64,000 nt of DNA from Engelhardtia mirabilis (GTDB lineage: Bacteria; Planctomycetota; UBA1135; GCA-002686595): assembly GCA_007751255.1 (NCBI GenBank), contig CP036296.1, positions 6,696,001-6,760,000 on the forward strand, in the 5' to 3' direction. The translations under genes were made by a program, and so were the position numbers. Every line of letters starts with the position of its first letter. The first letter of the stretch is position 1. The notes under the pieces were generated by a model. The model searched no databases. It saw only the letters and a list, made by a program, of their open reading frames with translations, and was not told the origin of the DNA. Below, one piece after another: positions 8,909 through 15,630 of the stretch.

Positions 8909-9769
8909 ATGGATGAGGTCCAAGCAGACGCCCAGCGCCACTGGGCGCCGCCGGGGAGCGCCTACTCGCCGCTGGTCGATCCCCGCGAGGGCGTGCGGCG
9001 AAGTGCCCAGGCCAACGCGCGCCTGGATCGCTCGATCGCGGGTGTCGACATGCGGACCGAGGACCAGGTCGCGCTGATCGAGGACCTCTTGCGCCTGCAC
9101 CGTCCGGAATCGGTCGGGGTGGAGCCCGCCGGCGCGGCGCGCTGGACCCGGGGCAACAGCTTCTATCCCCTGGGCGACGCCTACGTGTTGCAGGCGGTGG
9201 TCCGGCGCCAGAGGCCGAGGCGCGTGATCGAGGTGGGCGGCGGCTACTCGACAGCGGCGCTCCTGGACGCCATCGACATGGACGGGCGCGCAGACGAGGT
9301 GCAGATCACCGTGGTCGAGCCCGACCCCGACCGCCTGGCGTCGCTCCTGCGCGAGGGCGACACCGCGCGGCTCGAGGTCATGGTGGGCGAGATCCAGGAC
9401 CTGGAGCTCGAGCGCTACGACGAGCTCGGCGCGGGCGACCTGCTCCTGATCGACTCGAGCCACGTGCTCAAGACCGGCAGCGACGTACAGCTGCTCCTGT
9501 TCGAAGCCCTGCCGCGCCTGGCCCCCGGCGCGTTGGTCCACTTCCACGACGTGCCCTGGCCCTTCGAGTATCCGCCCGAGTGGATCGCCGAGGGGCGCAG
9601 TTGGAACGAGGCCTACGCGGTGCGAGCCTTCCTGCAGTTCAACTCGGCCTTCGGCGTGGCCCTGCACCTGTCGCACCTGGCCGCCCTCGATCGCCAGCGC
9701 CTGGCCCGCTCTTCTCCCGAACTGGCCGCGGAGGCCGGCAGCTCCCTCTGGATCGAGCGGCTGCGGTGA
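8909..9769 (+). CDS. Class I SAM-dependent methyltransferase
   Basis: 286 residues from the ATG at 8909; earlier starts in this frame overlap the divergent gene and lack family sequence. The S-adenosylmethionine motif I is RVIEVGGGYSTAALLDA, followed by the acidic ribose-binding residue in VVEPDPDRL and the motif IV region GDLLLIDSSHVLKTGSD. The pattern DSSHV...HFHDV resembles the Methyltransf_24/cephalosporin-hydroxylase-like group often found beside glycosyltransferases. The substrate is unknown. Its stop codon overlaps the GTG start of the GT87-type membrane glycosyltransferase (GTGA), so the two are translationally coupled and probably act on the same glycan or lipid. Confidence 0.85.
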   Translation: MDEVQADAQRHWAPPGSAYSPLVDPREGVRRSAQANARLDRSIAGVDMRTEDQVALIEDLLRLHRPESVGVEPAGAARWTRGNSFYPLGDAYVLQAVVRRQRPRRVIEVGGGYSTAALLDAIDMDGRADEVQITVVEPDPDRLASLLREGDTARLEVMVGEIQDLELERYDELGAGDLLLIDSSHVLKTGSDVQLLLFEALPRLAPGALVHFHDVPWPFEYPPEWIAEGRSWNEAYAVRAFLQFNSAFGVALHLSHLAALDRQRLARSSPELAAEAGSSLWIERLR

Positions 9770-11061
9770 ACGCGCGCGCCCGCCGCGCGCGCCTGGCGCT
9801 GATCGTCGTCGCCTGCGCGATCGGGATCGTGGCGCTGTTCGGGGTGGCGGACCGCGCGGCCGAGGGTCGCCAGGCGATCCTGCGCTGGCAGCCGGCCTTC
9901 GAGGCGCTCGAGTCGGGCGCGAACATCTACGCGCGCCCGGAGGGTGTAGTGGATCCCCACGCCACCAACGAGGGCTATCCGACCCTGCCCCTGTCGGCCC
10001 TGTTCATGGGCGCGGTGTTGAAGGCGGGCCCCGTGGTCGGTTGCCTGGTGTTCGCCGCGGTCAAGCTGGCCTGCGCGGCGCTCCTGTTGATCGGCGGCGT
10101 GCGCCTGGCTCGGACGGCGGGTCTCGAGTTGCCGCTGGCGGCGCAGTGGTTGCTGCTGCTGTTGACCCTGCGCGTGATGCTGTCCGACGTCAGCCACGGC
10201 AACACCAACCTGCTGGTCGGCGCGACGGTGGTGGCGACGGCCCTGTGGTGGTCGACGCGCCGTGACGGCCTGGCCGGAGGTGCGATCGCCCTGGGCGCGA
10301 CGCTGAAGGTCACGCCGCTGCTGCTCCTGGCCCTGCCCCTCGCCCGCCGCAGCCCGCTCGGATTGCTCGGCTTCGCGATCGGACTGTTGCTGTTCGTCGT
10401 CGTGCTGCCCGGTGCACTGCTCGGCTTCGACTTCAACCTCGAGCTGATCGGCGCCTGGTACGACCAGATGCTGGCGCCCTACCTCTCGAGCGCGGATCCG
10501 GGTCCGATGCAGACCCAGCAGATCAACCAATCCCTGCTGGGCGCCATGTCGAGGCTCACGACCGATTCGCTGGCGATCGAGGCGCGCGGCGACACCTGGC
10601 CAGCGGACGTGAGCGTGGCGCTGGTCCACCTGGACCCGGCGAGTTTCCGCTGCCTGCATCGGGCGGCTTGCGCCGCGGTCGTCGGGGTGTTCGCGGCGGC
10701 CCTCGTGCGTCGACCGGTCAGGCACCTGGCCCTGGCCCACGTGTCCCTCGGTGCCCTGGCCATGCTGCTGGTCTCCGAGCGTTCGTGGAAGCACCACCAC
10801 GTGACCCTGGCCCTACCCATCGCTTGGTGCTGTGGCGTGGCCTTCAGCGCCGCGCCCGTCCGTGAACGCGCGGTCGCGACGGCCGCGCTCGTGGCCTCCC
10901 TCGCCGGCCACGCTCTGTCTGGCAGCGGCGTGCTCGGAGACCGCGGCAGCGACCTGGCGGAGGCGTTCGGCGCCTTCACCTTCGCGGACCTGGCCCTGTT
11001 CGGGGCGGTGGCCTGGACCCTGTTCAAGCTCGAGCTGCCACCCCGCCGCTCCGGCGCCTGA
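9766..11061 (+). CDS. GT87-family (DUF2029) polyprenyl-phosphate-mannose-type membrane glycosyltransferase
   Basis: 431 residues from a GTG that overlaps the methyltransferase stop. About ten hydrophobic segments are visible. An early loop carries FEALESGANIYARPEG, the usual GT87 catalytic-loop setting, followed by GYPTLPLSAL. Further family signs are DVSHGNTNLLVGA and GATLKVTPLLLLALPL. Such enzymes transfer sugar (mannose in mycobacterial PimE-like members) from a polyprenyl-phosphate carrier on the outer face of the inner membrane. The exact donor and acceptor cannot be told. The 3' end overlaps the convergent HPP gene by 38 bases. Confidence 0.82.
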   Translation: MNARARRARLALIVVACAIGIVALFGVADRAAEGRQAILRWQPAFEALESGANIYARPEGVVDPHATNEGYPTLPLSALFMGAVLKAGPVVGCLVFAAVKLACAALLLIGGVRLARTAGLELPLAAQWLLLLLTLRVMLSDVSHGNTNLLVGATVVATALWWSTRRDGLAGGAIALGATLKVTPLLLLALPLARRSPLGLLGFAIGLLLFVVVLPGALLGFDFNLELIGAWYDQMLAPYLSSADPGPMQTQQINQSLLGAMSRLTTDSLAIEARGDTWPADVSVALVHLDPASFRCLHRAACAAVVGVFAAALVRRPVRHLALAHVSLGALAMLLVSERSWKHHHVTLALPIAWCCGVAFSAAPVRERAVATAALVASLAGHALSGSGVLGDRGSDLAEAFGAFTFADLALFGAVAWTLFKLELPPRRSGA

Positions 11062-11554
11062 GGACCGCGAGCGAACCGGCCACGACCCCGGCGCCGACCA
11101 TCAGAGCCAGGCCGTCGGCGGGGGTGCGCAGCAGGCCCAGCGCGAAGATCAGGGTCGTCGCCAGGGCCGGGGGGTGCGGCGTGCGCGCGAGGCCCGTGGC
11201 CGCCGCGGTGAGGGTCACCGCCAGGGTCGCCGATAGGACGTGGCGCAGCTCGAAGGCCTGGGGCAAGGCGGGGACCATCCGTGCGGCGCCGCTGACCCAC
11301 AGGGCCGCCATGCCGAGGGCGACACCCAGGCCGTGGCCCAGGATCACGTTGCGCGGCCGGTTGCTCTCGGCGCCGGGGGCGGCGAGCCCCGCGAAGGCGG
11401 TGACCCCCAGGGGCGGCGCCAGCACGGCCGCGTCCGCGGCCGCCGCCAAGAGGCCGATCGGGACCATCAGCGCCCCGCTGGCCAGGGCCAAGCGCAGGGT
11501 CGAGAGGGCCGGCAGCGGCGCCACTTCCGTCCGTTGTGGAGTTTCGAGAACCAT
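11024..11554 (-). CDS. HPP-family integral membrane protein
   Basis: 176 residues from the ATG at 11554; an earlier in-frame ATG at 11641 would add a charged, non-conserved stretch and run over the operator-like repeat. Four or five hydrophobic helices are present. The family signature is clear: VLAPPLGVTAFAGLAAPG, ESNRPRNVILGHGLGV and ARTPHPPALATTL. HPP proteins include plant chloroplast nitrite transporters, and bacterial homologues are often near nitrogen-oxide genes. Here the gene is divergent from a globin/reductase/NsrR operon, so nitrite or another nitrogen oxide is a reasonable inferred substrate. Confidence 0.85.
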   Translation of the reverse strand: MVLETPQRTEVAPLPALSTLRLALASGALMVPIGLLAAAADAAVLAPPLGVTAFAGLAAPGAESNRPRNVILGHGLGVALGMAALWVSGAARMVPALPQAFELRHVLSATLAVTLTAAATGLARTPHPPALATTLIFALGLLRTPADGLALMVGAGVVAGSLAVLRRRSGGVAARA

Positions 11555-11586
11555 TTCAGATGACGAGTCGATCGGACCGATGGCAT

Positions 11587-11607
11587 AGTGGCGAACGAAA
11601 CGCCACT
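11587..11607. promoter_or_regulatory. Perfect inverted repeat between HPP gene and globin operon (candidate NsrR operator)
   Basis: AGTGGCG (11587-11593), a 7-base spacer, then CGCCACT (11601-11607): two-fold symmetry over 21 bases. It is 32 bases upstream of the HPP ATG and 61 bases upstream of the globin ATG. The position in the shared divergent control region, with an NsrR gene in the operon, suggests a repressor site. The sequence does not match the known enterobacterial NsrR consensus, so assignment is by position only. Confidence 0.4.
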
Positions 11608-11668
11608 TTAGGCGGGCCCGGCGGAGGTCGGACCGCTCCACCCCTCCCGAATCCGATTCCTACGATCC

Positions 11669-12031
11669 ATGAGCCTCTACGAACGCCTCGGCGGTGAGCC
11701 CGCCTTCCAATCCGCCGTCGACGAGTTCTACCGCCGCATGCTGACCGACGAGCGGGTCTCGCGCTTCTTCGACGACGTCGACATGGAGGGCCAGATCGCC
11801 AAGCAGAAGGCCTTCCTGACCTACGTGACCGGCGGGCCGGCCGAGTACACCGGCAAGGACATGCGCGCGGCCCACGCCGAGCTGAACGAGCGCGGCCTCA
11901 GCGACGAGCACGTCGACGTCGTGATCGAGCACCTGGGCGCGGTCCTGCTGTCGATGGGTGCGGCGCCCGACGACGTGGGCGAGGTCGCGGCCCTGGCCGA
12001 GAGCGTGCGCGCGGACGTCCTGGGCCGATGA
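11669..12031 (+). CDS. glbN: Group I truncated (2/2) haemoglobin
   Basis: 120 residues, the normal size of a trHbN-type globin. The signature is complete: SLYERLGGEPAFQSAVDEFY, the Phe20-Tyr21 B-helix pair whose tyrosine stabilises bound oxygen, FLTYVTGGPAEYTGKDM and the proximal haem-ligand His69 in MRAAH. Known members oxidise nitric oxide to nitrate when supplied with electrons. The stop overlaps the start of a ferredoxin-NAD(P)H-type reductase (ATGA), giving it a dedicated partner, and an NsrR repressor gene follows. NO detoxification is therefore the likely role; this is inferred from context plus family knowledge. Confidence 0.93.
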   Translation: MSLYERLGGEPAFQSAVDEFYRRMLTDERVSRFFDDVDMEGQIAKQKAFLTYVTGGPAEYTGKDMRAAHAELNERGLSDEHVDVVIEHLGAVLLSMGAAPDDVGEVAALAESVRADVLGR

Positions 12032-12999
12032 GCCCCGGCCAGATCGAGGTCGAGGGCCAGCGCATCGAGCTGGAGCAGGGCGAGACCGTCCTCCAGGGGC
12101 TCGAGCGCGCCGGCCTCGACGTGGCCAGCGGCTGCCGCGCCGGGACCTGCACCAAGTGCCTGCTCCAGGCGCAGGACGCTCCGCCCCCGGCCAGTCAGCG
12201 GGGCCTGCGCCCCACGCTCACGGCCCAGAACTTCTTCCTCGCCTGCCAGGCACGCCCGACCGGGCTCCTGCGCCTGCGTGGGAGCCGGGGTCCCGAACCG
12301 GTGCGGGCCCGCGTGGCCTCGATCGACCACCTGACCGAGGACGTGGCGCGACTGCGCCTGACCCCCGACGAGCGCTTCGACTACCGCCCGGGGCAGTACC
12401 TCGACGTGCTGCACCCCGGCGGCGAGTCGCGCAGCTACTCGATCGCGAGCCTGCCGAGTGACGGTTGGCTGGAGCTGCACGTGCGCCGGATTCCGGGCGG
12501 GCAGGTCAGCGGATGGCTCCACGAGCTGGCCGTCGACGCCGAACTCGCGGTGCGCGGTCCATTCGGCCAGTGCTTCCACGTGGCGGACGACGACCAGCGC
12601 AAGCTGCTCCTGGTGGGCGCCGGCACCGGGCTCGCACCCCTGGTGGGCATCGCACGGGACGCGCTCGAGCAGGGTCACCGCGGGCCGATCGACCTGGTCC
12701 ACGGCGGACTCGAACCGAATCGGCTCTACCTGCGCGACGACCTCGACCGGCTGGCCCGGGAGTCCCCGCAACTGCGCGTGCACCACTGCGTCCTGCGGGG
12801 CGCCACCGCGCGCGAGCACGAGGGGCCGTTGGATCAGGTCGCGATCCGCCTGGCCGGAGCCCTGGCCGGCGCCCGCGCCTTCCTCTGCGGGGACGGCGAG
12901 ATCGTGCACCTGCTGCGCCGCAGCCTGTTCCTGGCGGGCCTGCCTTCCGGCGAGATCCTGGCCGATCCCTTCCTGCCGTCGAAGCCCGCCCTGGCTTGA
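12028..12999 (+). CDS. 2Fe-2S ferredoxin / FAD / NAD(P)H reductase
   Basis: 323 residues. An N-terminal plant-type 2Fe-2S domain has Cys36, Cys41, Cys44 and Cys73 (SGCRAGTCTKC and LAC). An FAD domain follows with the isoalloxazine motif RSYSIAS (residues 135-141). An NAD(P)H domain carries GAGTGLAPLVG and AFLCGDGE. The order ferredoxin-FAD-NAD is that of phenol-hydroxylase and CDP-6-deoxyglucose reductases. The four-base overlap with the globin gene makes it the probable haem reductase, so the pair does in two polypeptides what flavohaemoglobin Hmp does in one, with an extra iron-sulfur centre. Confidence 0.92.
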   Translation: MSPGQIEVEGQRIELEQGETVLQGLERAGLDVASGCRAGTCTKCLLQAQDAPPPASQRGLRPTLTAQNFFLACQARPTGLLRLRGSRGPEPVRARVASIDHLTEDVARLRLTPDERFDYRPGQYLDVLHPGGESRSYSIASLPSDGWLELHVRRIPGGQVSGWLHELAVDAELAVRGPFGQCFHVADDDQRKLLLVGAGTGLAPLVGIARDALEQGHRGPIDLVHGGLEPNRLYLRDDLDRLARESPQLRVHHCVLRGATAREHEGPLDQVAIRLAGALAGARAFLCGDGEIVHLLRRSLFLAGLPSGEILADPFLPSKPALA

Positions 13000-13069
13000 G
13001 CTGCTGGCGCTGGTCATCGCGGGCCGTGTCCTGCACCATCGAGCGCGCGCTGCTCTCGCGCCGACGCCC

Positions 13070-13507
13070 TTGCGAATCACCAAGCACACCGACTTCGCCC
13101 TGCGGGTCCTGATCTTCCTGGCCTCGCGCCCGGGCGAACGCGTCTCGACCGAACGCATCGCCCAGGCCCACGGCATCTCCCTGGCCCACCTGCAGAAGGT
13201 CGTGCGTCGCCTGGGCGAGCTCGGCTTCCTGCGCCTGGTGCGCGGCAGCGGCGGCGGCGTCGAGTTGGCCCGCGACCCCGAGGACGTCTCGATCGGCGCC
13301 GTGGTCCGCGCCCTCGACGACGCCACCAGCCTGGTCGAGTGCTTCGAACCCGCCACCGACACCTGCGTGATCTCGTCGGCCTGCCGCCTCAAGGGCTCCC
13401 TGCGCGTGGCCCAGGAGGCCTTCTACGCCGCCCTCGACGACACGAACCTGCAGGAGATCGTCGCCGGCAAGGTCGGCGCCCGCCTGCGGGAACTCACCGG
13501 CGGCTGA
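13070..13507 (+). CDS. nsrR: Rrf2-family nitric-oxide-sensing repressor NsrR
   Basis: 145 residues from a TTG start that gives the canonical beginning RITKHTDFALRVLIFLA; the frame is open upstream but non-homologous. A winged-helix DNA-binding region spans residues 1-80 (GISLAHLQKVVRRLGELGF). Three cysteines, Cys91, Cys99 and Cys105 in LVECFEPATDTCVISSAC, have the C-X7-C-X5-C spacing I recall for Bacillus-type NsrR, where they ligate the NO-sensitive iron-sulfur cluster. RLKGSLRVAQEAFY is also NsrR-like. It follows the reductase gene by 70 bases and probably represses its own operon and the divergent HPP gene. Confidence 0.9.
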   Translation: MRITKHTDFALRVLIFLASRPGERVSTERIAQAHGISLAHLQKVVRRLGELGFLRLVRGSGGGVELARDPEDVSIGAVVRALDDATSLVECFEPATDTCVISSACRLKGSLRVAQEAFYAALDDTNLQEIVAGKVGARLRELTGG

Positions 13508-13551: not shown

Positions 13552-14694
13552 ATGCTCTCGGTCCTGTTCGTCAACTACAACTCCTGGGCCGAGCTCGAGG
13601 GCGCCCTGACCTCCCTCGCGCAGCAGTGGCCGCTGGACGGCGGGCAGCGCGAGCTGGAAGTGGTCGTCGTCGACAACGCCTCGCCCCACCGCGACGCCTC
13701 GATCGAGGCCCGCGTCGAAGCTTCGCTGGCGCGTTGGGGAGGGCGGCTGGTCCGCCACGCTCGCAACGACGGCTACGGCGGCGGCATGAACCTGGCCCTT
13801 GAGCACGCCAGCGGTGAGCTGATCCTGGTCTGCAACCCGGACCTCTTGTTCCTGCCCGGCTGCATCGAGCGCATGGCGCGGCACCTGGACGAGCATCCGA
13901 GGGTCGGCGTGGTGAGCCCCGAGACGTTCGCCACCGCCGACCGCTCGCTGCGCTTGCCGACGGGAGTCGTGCCGACCCTGGCCGATTTCGTCGGCGACAC
14001 CCTGGCCGCCCTCAGCCCGCGCTTCGCCCATCGCAACTCGATGCGTCGGACGCGGCAGTTCCTGCCGGTCTGGAGCGCCGGCCCTGACCTGGAAGTCGAG
14101 ATGGTCGCGGGTTGCTGCTTCATGCTGCGACGCGCGGTGATCGAAGAGGTCGGATTCTTCGACGAGCGCTACACCCTCTACTACGAGGACACCGACCTGT
14201 CCCTGCGCGTGCGCCGAGCCGGTTGGACCATCGAGCAGGTGGACGGGGCCGGCATCGTGCACCTCTACGACCGCTCGGCCGCGACCGACCGCCATGCCGC
14301 CCACGCGCGGATGCTGCACAGCCGGCGGGCGTACTTCCGCCGCTGGTACGGACCGCTCGGCGCTTGGGCCCACGACGCTTGCCTCGCGCTTCTGCGTACT
14401 GGCTGGGCCGAACGTCGCCGTTCAAAGGCCCAGGACAGCGCCGTGCCGCTGGGCGTCGCGGCCGGCGAGTTGAGCCTCGAGATCCCCGGGCCCAGCCGTC
14501 GCTGGCTGGTCGAGATCGCCTACGACCCAGACTTCCTCTACGCCGCCGGTCAGATCGGCTCGGGCCCGTGCTGGACCCCCTGCGAGCAGGTCTTGGCCGA
14601 GCTACGGCAGCCCGCCTGGCTGCGGATCATCGACCTCGACGGGGCGCGGCCGCGGGAGCTCGTCCGCTACCGCTGGGGCGTCTCGCCCGGCTGA
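13552..14694 (+). CDS. Family 2 glycosyltransferase (rhamnosyltransferase-like)
   Basis: 380 residues from the ATG at 13552. The GT-A fold is evident: SVLFVNYNSWAELEGAL, VVVVDNASPHRDASI, the conserved asparagine-glycine turn ARNDGYGGGMNLAL, the nucleotide-sugar metal motif region ILVCNPDLLFL, and the acceptor-side FFDERYTLYYEDTDLSLR. Such enzymes add deoxysugars or hexoses to cell-surface polysaccharides at the cytoplasmic face. The C-terminal 100 residues do not resemble the usual family and may be an added domain. It starts 45 bases after nsrR, without obvious functional link. Confidence 0.88.
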   Translation: MLSVLFVNYNSWAELEGALTSLAQQWPLDGGQRELEVVVVDNASPHRDASIEARVEASLARWGGRLVRHARNDGYGGGMNLALEHASGELILVCNPDLLFLPGCIERMARHLDEHPRVGVVSPETFATADRSLRLPTGVVPTLADFVGDTLAALSPRFAHRNSMRRTRQFLPVWSAGPDLEVEMVAGCCFMLRRAVIEEVGFFDERYTLYYEDTDLSLRVRRAGWTIEQVDGAGIVHLYDRSAATDRHAAHARMLHSRRAYFRRWYGPLGAWAHDACLALLRTGWAERRRSKAQDSAVPLGVAAGELSLEIPGPSRRWLVEIAYDPDFLYAAGQIGSGPCWTPCEQVLAELRQPAWLRIIDLDGARPRELVRYRWGVSPG

Positions 14695-14709
14695 GCTCGC
14701 CCGCGTGCG

Positions 14710-15630
14710 TCAGCGGCCGCCACGAAAGCGCGCCGGGTCGCGCTCCGAGTTGGGCACGAATGGGAAGGCGGCGCTGGGCTCCACCCCCACGTCCGGCCCG
14801 CCCTGGTAGAGGTTGCCGACGAACGGCCCGCCGAGCAGGCGGCGCTGCACGGTGCTCGCCCGTTCGAACACCTCGCGTGACGTGCGCAAGCCGTGGAAGT
14901 TCGGGAACCAATAAGGCCCGTAGGTGAAGTACAGGGTGCGGCGCGTGCGGCCGGAGTGCAGGGCCTTGGCGCCATGCCACAGGTCCTGGGTCAACACGAC
15001 CACGTCGCCGGCCTCCACCAGCACCTCGGTGTAGCCGGGCAGGTCCTCCCAGCGCACCTGCGGCCGACCCTCGTTCTGGGCGCGGAAGGCGGCGCTTACC
15101 TCGCGATCGAACTGCGGCTCCGGCCAGTCTGGGTGCAGGCGACCGTAGGGGAAGTCCTCCGCCCGCCGATGGCTGCCCGCCAGGGCGACGAAGGGGCCGT
15201 CGTCGGTGCCCACGTCGCTGAGGCAGACCGTCAGGGTCAACAGGCGCGTACGCGGTCCGGTGGGCGTCTCCTCGAAGCCCGACAGGGCCAGGGCGTGCAG
15301 GGGCAACCCGACGCCGCGCCGCCGGGTGAGGGCGAAGCTCTCGGTCAGGCGGATGTCGCCCGGCATCAAGGCCGCGCACCAGTCCAGGAACAACGGCTCG
15401 TCGACGAGGTCCAGGAACCGCTGGCCGCACTCGGTGACGTTCATCAACCGGTACTCGTCGACCACCGGCGTGAAGCTCGCCAAGGATTCGGCGGGCAGGT
15501 CGGGGGTCTGCAGGCCCTCGAAGGCTCGCAGGTCGTCGGACAGCGCCGACACGCGCTCGGGGTCGAAGGCACCGCGCACGACGTGGAAGCCGTTGGCGGC
15601 GAAGCTCTGTAGTTCTCTCGAGGTCGGCAT
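14710..15630 (-). CDS. Phytanoyl-CoA dioxygenase (PhyH)-like protein
   Basis: 306 residues. The start reads ELQSFAANGFHVVRGAFDPE, the typical PhyH opening. Later blocks fit the jelly-roll core: GPFVALAGSHRR, AGDVVVLTQDLWHGA (candidate distal iron-ligand histidine) and RRTLYFTYGPYW (2-oxoglutarate-binding arginine). The usual first iron motif H-x-D/E is not evident: the corresponding region reads LPLHALALSG. It may be a diverged Fe(II)/2-oxoglutarate oxygenase or a protein that has lost metal binding. Substrate unknown. It is convergent with the GT2 gene, 15 bases apart. Confidence 0.75.
   Translation of the reverse strand: MPTSRELQSFAANGFHVVRGAFDPERVSALSDDLRAFEGLQTPDLPAESLASFTPVVDEYRLMNVTECGQRFLDLVDEPLFLDWCAALMPGDIRLTESFALTRRRGVGLPLHALALSGFEETPTGPRTRLLTLTVCLSDVGTDDGPFVALAGSHRRAEDFPYGRLHPDWPEPQFDREVSAAFRAQNEGRPQVRWEDLPGYTEVLVEAGDVVVLTQDLWHGAKALHSGRTRRTLYFTYGPYWFPNFHGLRTSREVFERASTVQRRLLGGPFVGNLYQGGPDVGVEPSAAFPFVPNSERDPARFRGGR

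Follow-up and report, generated by a model that had tools for sequence, protein, structure and literature searches.

A truncated haemoglobin-ferredoxin reductase operon with an NsrR-like regulator in Engelhardtia mirabilis: a candidate two-protein nitric oxide dioxygenase

In the passages of Rodionov et al. (2005, PMC1274295) that treat the nitric oxide (NO) regulator NsrR, flavohaemoglobin (Hmp) is the most conserved NsrR target. The sole target predicted for Legionella pneumophila is glbN-lpg2536, encoding a cyanoglobin and a hypothetical ferredoxin reductase; Hmp-like NO oxidation was suggested for this pair in the same paper (PMC1274295), a proposal repeated by Gardner 2012 (PMC3820574). 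According to the relevant parts of other reports, the group I truncated haemoglobin (trHb) THB1 of Chlamydomonas has a distal lysine as haem ligand and NO dioxygenase activity in vitro (PMC4304232), the gene of a group I trHb is among the ten most transcribed in Methyloprofundus, perhaps as an NO response (PMC8788690), and AtNITR2;1 is a nitrite transporter of the HPP family (PMC4137279, citing Maeda 2014). Here we analyse a 64,000-nucleotide stretch of the Engelhardtia mirabilis genome (contig CP036296.1, positions 6,696,001 to 6,760,000; 'the window' below) in which genes for a truncated globin, a reductase and an Rrf2 family regulator form an operon, with a gene for an HPP family membrane protein divergent from it.

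An earlier note on this stretch had described the four-gene arrangement at 11024-13507, and all the genes were found as claimed (Table 1). The globin and reductase genes overlap by 4 bp (ATGA), while the Rrf2 gene starts 70 bp after the end of the reductase gene, with no overlap. We consider it probable, with good confidence, that the operon encodes a two-protein NO dioxygenase that is repressed by an NsrR-type protein and induced by NO, a prediction from sequence as regards NO sensing, repression, catalysis, electron transfer and transport alike. The Rrf2 repressor, carrying an Fe-S cluster on C91, C99, C105 and D8, would bind a palindrome at 11586-11608 and thereby repress the globin, reductase and repressor genes and, via the same intergenic region, the HPP gene. 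NO would attack the cluster and release the repressor; the oxygenated globin would then turn NO into nitrate, and the co-translated NAD(P)H-FAD-[2Fe-2S] reductase would return the ferric haem of the globin to the ferrous form. Two proteins would in this way do the job of the single-chain flavohaemoglobin, and the HPP protein may carry nitrate or nitrite across the membrane.

The linkage of globin, reductase and Rrf2 genes is conserved far beyond chance. Loci from named genomes were fetched by globin similarity alone (the best 80 of 158 relatives), a sample that leans to close relatives; globin matches were obtained in 24 of 61 genomes, comprising that of E. mirabilis and those of its relatives. 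The counting set holds 86 loci with globins at least 54% identical: 75 named loci, 10 from relatives and that of the window, after removal of L049, L051, L054, L064 and L084 as duplicates of relatives' loci and of L129 as a duplicate of the window. Scoring of the reductase required 500 bp or more of downstream sequence (80 loci) and that of Rrf2 sufficiently long flanks on the two sides (72 loci). A reductase gene lies directly 3' of the globin gene in 73 of the 80, and an Rrf2 gene is nearby in 43 of the 72 (divergent upstream in 25, upstream on the same strand in 3, downstream on the same strand in 15); both are present in 41/72 and neither in 3/72. Since the loci are not independent of each other, we also counted clusters. 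At 90% globin identity the reductase is found in 57 of 63 clusters and Rrf2 in 36 of 59; at 80%, where one positive member sufficed, the figures are 39/44 and 29/43. Loci bearing the globin-reductase pair, going by record titles, span at least five phyla (Planctomycetota, Pseudomonadota, Myxococcota, Acidobacteriota and Hydrogenedentota). None of six distant trHbs (30-43% identity) has a reductase or Rrf2 gene beside it, and a seventh, L043, likewise has neither. Conserved linkage in relatives was one of the two things on which the earlier note had staked its reading, and it held for the reductase and Rrf2 and, at 9 of the 86 loci, for HPP. The window itself shows the order of the Legionella-type glbN-reductase operon, that is, a group I trHb gene followed by a reductase gene, with a linked gene for an NsrR-type regulator.

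A mirror-tree comparison gave correlated globin and reductase identities (Spearman 0.44, against 0.19 for the best of 500 permutations), but we do not lean on this as support, because shared ancestry accounts for part of it. Duplicated pairs were seen in two species: Methylobacter tundripaludum has two globin-reductase pairs on opposite strands within about 4 kb (L121:5929-9790), and Legionella londiniensis has two copies of the pair on separate contigs (L058 and L061).

Many of these operons are preceded by a recognizable NsrR box. The published consensus, gATGyAT-N5-ATrCATc (Rodionov et al., PMC1274295), is matched at 12 or more of 14 positions in the 250 bp that precede the globin gene in 36 of the 86 loci, and perfectly in 11, whereas 50 first-order resamplings gave a mean of 0.5 and a maximum of 3 of 86 loci, and the globin coding sequences, taken as a control at the same threshold, gave 0/86. 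With one locus per 90% cluster, the count is 27/68. Scored with an extended consensus of 18 positions plus an AGTGG variant, 52/86 loci reach 14 or better, a figure that is partly circular because both patterns were drawn partly from these loci; the best scorers on the variant consensus are L033, L039, L050 and L057. The palindrome of the window, TAGTGG-N11-CCACTT, lies 60 bp before the globin start and 31 bp before the HPP start and shares its 23-bp geometry with the NsrR-type boxes that precede sister operons. It is the sole single-mismatch site in the window, where four sites with at most two mismatches occur against 0.91 expected. Operator type, compared by eye with the recognition helix of the Rrf2 proteins, followed no strict pattern.

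Elsewhere in the E. mirabilis genome (6.95 Mb), AAGTGG-N11-CCACTT occurs without mismatch once, at C1:4885040-4885062. This site and that of the window are exactly the two genomic occurrences of the stricter form AGTGGCR-N7-YGCCACT (one in the reversed control), a count that is descriptive because the pattern was drawn from both sites. A cytochrome c gene (two CxxCH motifs) begins 40 bp after the twin; next come a Sec-dependent (clade II) nosZ (TIGR04246, 803 bits, cut-off 625), a 221-amino-acid open reading frame without Pfam match and nosD. This clade II nos cluster, with its dihaem-type cytochrome c, occupies C1:4880000-4885062 (L143:1-5063). Direct repression of nosZ by NsrR has a precedent in Magnetospirillum, as described in the pertinent part of PMC11014258. 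Among 18 genomes, several of them incomplete, a full-length nosZ match was found only in E. mirabilis and in G001, where a different Rrf2 gene, its product 50% identical to E. mirabilis' own, stands directly upstream of nosZ (L168:883-1438); before that Rrf2-nosZ pair we found one weak AAGTGG-type palindrome, mismatched at 2 of 12 positions, and longer consensuses reached at most 11/18. We put forward tentatively, as a possibility that falls somewhat short of being probable, that an NsrR relative acting on a rewritten operator (AAGTGG-N11-CCACTT replacing AAGATG-N11-CATCTT) ties together the globin-reductase pair for aerobic NO removal, the recurrent HPP protein as a nitrate/nitrite permease and the cytochrome c-nosZ genes. 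If this is true, one NO signal would clear NO and also prepare nitrous oxide (N2O) reduction in this planctomycete lineage; the twin operator suggests that the two processes may be co-switched in E. mirabilis.

HPP is an optional yet recurrent partner of the globin-reductase pair. TM_HPP genes exceed the cut-off in 11 of 40 genomes, one in each; in six of these (G000, G019, G065, G080, G087 and G088), which belong to two phyla, the gene lies within about 2.3 kb of the globin gene, and in the other five it is on another contig. A weak hidden Markov model built from the window protein, which detected HPP nowhere but in the window and L033, had suggested that HPP is unlinked, a view overturned by the model rebuilt from the 11 HPP proteins, which yielded the nine loci mentioned above. 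The gene is divergent in the window, L033 and L075, upstream on the same strand in L083 and L090, downstream on the same strand in L056 and L107, and downstream on the opposite strand in L085 and L088. The window protein has the H-P-P motif and, as judged by eye from the alignment, forms with that of L033 a subtype distinct from that of the gammaproteobacterial proteins. Is HPP then simply an unrelated neighbour? Its low frequency near the pair and variable orientation, as well as its location elsewhere in five of the HPP-bearing genomes, would fit this explanation, and a search upstream of HPP in L083, L085, L088 and L090 gave no NsrR-like box, which argues against strict co-regulation in those four loci. 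However, more than half of the HPP-bearing genomes place the gene close to the globin gene, and in the window the operator region is common to HPP and the operon. Recurrence in two phyla and in differing gene orders argues for a functional tie, and we regard mere neighbourhood as rather unlikely. The association suggests a route for an NO-derived product. A literature search on HPP with NsrR found no paper, and one on HPP with nitric oxide, haemoglobin and operon returned only one plant review.

The window globin is a group I truncated haemoglobin, with a Bac_globin domain, a proximal His and a B10 Tyr, and its best relatives in the PDB belong to the same group (cyanoglobin 2hz2, E 6e-30). Residues Y21, Q42, K45, Q46 and H69 are conserved in 85 of 86 aligned globins, the remaining one having a gap, and F20 is conserved in 84; we take F20, Y21, Q42, K45, Q46 and H69 to be probably B9, B10, E7, E10, E11 and F8, respectively. 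The reductase is of the Fer2-FAD-NAD oxygenase type, with a CX4CX2C...C [2Fe-2S] motif, an FAD motif (RxYS) and an NAD-binding domain; its Fer2, FAD_binding_6 and NAD_binding_1 domains all exceed the cut-off. The four [2Fe-2S] cysteines are conserved in all 72 full-length reductases (77 were found, of which 5 shorter ones were excluded). No open reading frame in the fetched loci combines the globin and reductase domains. How truncated haemoglobins are re-reduced in cells is an old question, and without a reductase to re-reduce the haem, turnover of a truncated haemoglobin as NO dioxygenase would be impossible. A reductase placed 3' of one trHb lineage in so many loci and in at least five phyla is a likely re-reduction partner.

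Alternatively, the globin could be an NO reductase, a nitrite reductase or an oxygen carrier that the reductase keeps ferrous. Group II and III trHbs of methanotrophs are thought, in the part of PMC11102522 that concerns them, to supply methane monooxygenase with O2, and the operator's twin upstream of nosZ hints at expression at low O2. On the other hand, many globins have been argued to work as NO dioxygenases, and in vitro activity of this kind was demonstrated with a group I trHb (PMC3820574 and PMC4304232, in their relevant passages), and a tightly linked reductase suits catalytic turnover better than oxygen storage, so that we hold these other roles to be improbable. A role as NO dioxygenase also fits the distribution of flavohaemoglobin. 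No flavohaemoglobin exceeds the curated cut-off in the E. mirabilis genome, and only 1 of 40 genomes (G081, Nitrotoga) has one above it (NF009805), the other 39 giving partial, sub-threshold matches only; many of the 40 are incomplete, and the count has no matched background rate for comparison. This scarcity is compatible with the globin-reductase pair as an Hmp substitute, as was argued for Legionella in 2005. The idea of a two-component counterpart of flavohaemoglobin with a 2Fe-2S centre, already voiced in the earlier note, is supported by conserved linkage, NsrR-type boxes upstream of many of the pairs and the published Legionella prediction.

The Rrf2 protein, whose TTG start was assigned by alignment with the structure 5n07, has that NsrR as its closest solved relative (E 7e-24). 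It combines an Rrf2 domain with D8, which we take to be the fourth ligand of the NsrR Fe-S cluster, and with three cysteines at exactly the positions first noted, 91, 99 and 105. D8 and C91 are conserved in 47 of 47 Rrf2 neighbours and C99 and C105 in 46, the single gap (L006) being due to a contig that ends there; two stronger Rrf2 paralogues of the E. mirabilis genome have E at the D8 position.

Several observations weigh against an NsrR-controlled NO dioxygenase. Seven of the 80 loci have no adjoining reductase gene (L040, L086, L092, L094, L095, L099 and L120), and these include both Methyloprofundus loci (L095 and L099); no Rrf2 gene is nearby in 29 of 72. The similarity of the reductase to those of oxygenases (MmoC, BenC) means that it may have another partner. 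The site of the window matches 8/14 positions of the published NsrR consensus and 11/14 of the variant, a level met on average by 1.6 of 86 resampled sequences; its score on the variant is low because the YAT/ATR part is unconserved. The looser operator (at most one mismatch) is not enriched in the E. mirabilis genome, with 9 sites against 24 in the reversed control, and in each of 12 relatives there were likewise fewer sites than in the reversed control. Apart from the window and nosZ sites, the nine comprise five in stop-to-stop frames longer than 600 amino acids, one in L140 and one in L137, which overlaps the start of what by eye resembles a polysaccharide-export membrane protein and which we judged to be a chance occurrence; the window and nosZ sites themselves lie under stop-to-stop frames of 173-360 amino acids, such frames being a weak guide because of the genome G+C. 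The E. mirabilis genome yielded no Cu nitrite reductase. Finally, the NCBIfam models for NsrR (104.9 bits, cut-off 182) and RirA (97.7 bits, cut-off 193) both stay below their cut-offs on the window Rrf2, for which reason we call it NsrR-like rather than an NsrR ortholog. An iron- or redox-responsive module, with an Rrf2 sensor akin to RirA or IscR, would accord with the closeness of these two scores and with a C-X7-C-X5-C spacing that is not unique to NsrR, but it is very improbable given the published NsrR boxes before many sister operons, the invariance of D8 where the two stronger paralogues carry E, the closest solved structure being an NsrR and the operator's twin before nosZ.

Table 1. 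Coordinates (window numbering) of the operon, the divergent gene and the putative operator
Feature	Coordinates	Strand	Details
HPP family membrane protein (TM_HPP), candidate nitrate/nitrite transporter	11024..11554	-	PF04982 40.1 bits, cut-off 27.2
Putative Rrf2/NsrR-like repressor operator TAGTGG-CGAACGAAACG-CCACTT	11586..11608	.	HPP-globin intergenic region
Group I truncated globin, 120 aa	11669..12031	+	PF01152 67.7 bits, cut-off 21
Ferredoxin-type [2Fe-2S]-FAD-NAD reductase, 323 aa	12028..12999	+	C36, C41, C44, C73
Rrf2 family regulator, NsrR-like, 145 aa	13070..13507	+	PF02082 119.7 bits; D8, C91, C99, C105

The operon is flanked by genes that seem unrelated, encoding a GT87 and a family 2 glycosyltransferase and a PhyH dioxygenase (9580-11061 and 13552-15630) and also a methyltransferase. 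E. mirabilis has a second truncated globin gene (G000:C1:6016833-6017168; L001 and L048), with neither a reductase nor an Rrf2 gene beside it. Locus L035, from a genome of the same order and another family (G049), has a globin 81% identical to that of the window, together with a reductase and an Rrf2 gene, while many genomes of the same family, some incomplete, gave no match in the globin similarity search. The likeness of L035 and the patchy presence within the family suggest horizontal transfer of the globin locus.

How does this operon compare with the systems described so far? The HPP protein of the window, a low-scoring member (40 bits), has its family in common with AtNITR2;1. The near-invariant K45 of the globin family recalls the distal lysine of THB1, to which we presume it is equivalent in position (probable E10); THB1 is algal, however, and we know of no operon-encoded reductase for it. 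The regulator shares with 5n07, which we take to be NsrR of Streptomyces coelicolor, the Rrf2 fold and the aligned D8 and three cysteines, but the match is only 88 bits and the Cys spacing is off by two residues. Hmp is a single chain, has a globin of the 3/3 type and lacks a Fer2 domain. Like it (NF009805), the window combines a globin with an FAD/NAD reductase; unlike it, the window has separate genes for two chains, a truncated globin and an extra [2Fe-2S] centre.

The closest described system remains the Legionella operon. The core idea, a trHb-reductase pair as NsrR-controlled NO oxidiser, was already published for Legionella in 2005; the breadth of the linkage, the association with HPP and the variant operator common with nosZ are additions that we did not see in the papers returned by our searches. 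As far as the passages on glbN-lpg2536 describe it, both systems have a cyanoglobin-type trHb with a ferredoxin reductase after it and a proposed Hmp-like role; an NsrR site was predicted in Legionella, and the window has a putative variant of such a site. The fetched Legionella globins (L. pneumophila itself being outside the set) are 63-67% identical to that of the window. Those of the Legionella loci that have Rrf2 in the neighbourhood carry it in divergent orientation and have an AAGATG-type box, whereas the window has a downstream Rrf2 gene on the same strand, an AGTGG-type box and a divergent HPP gene.

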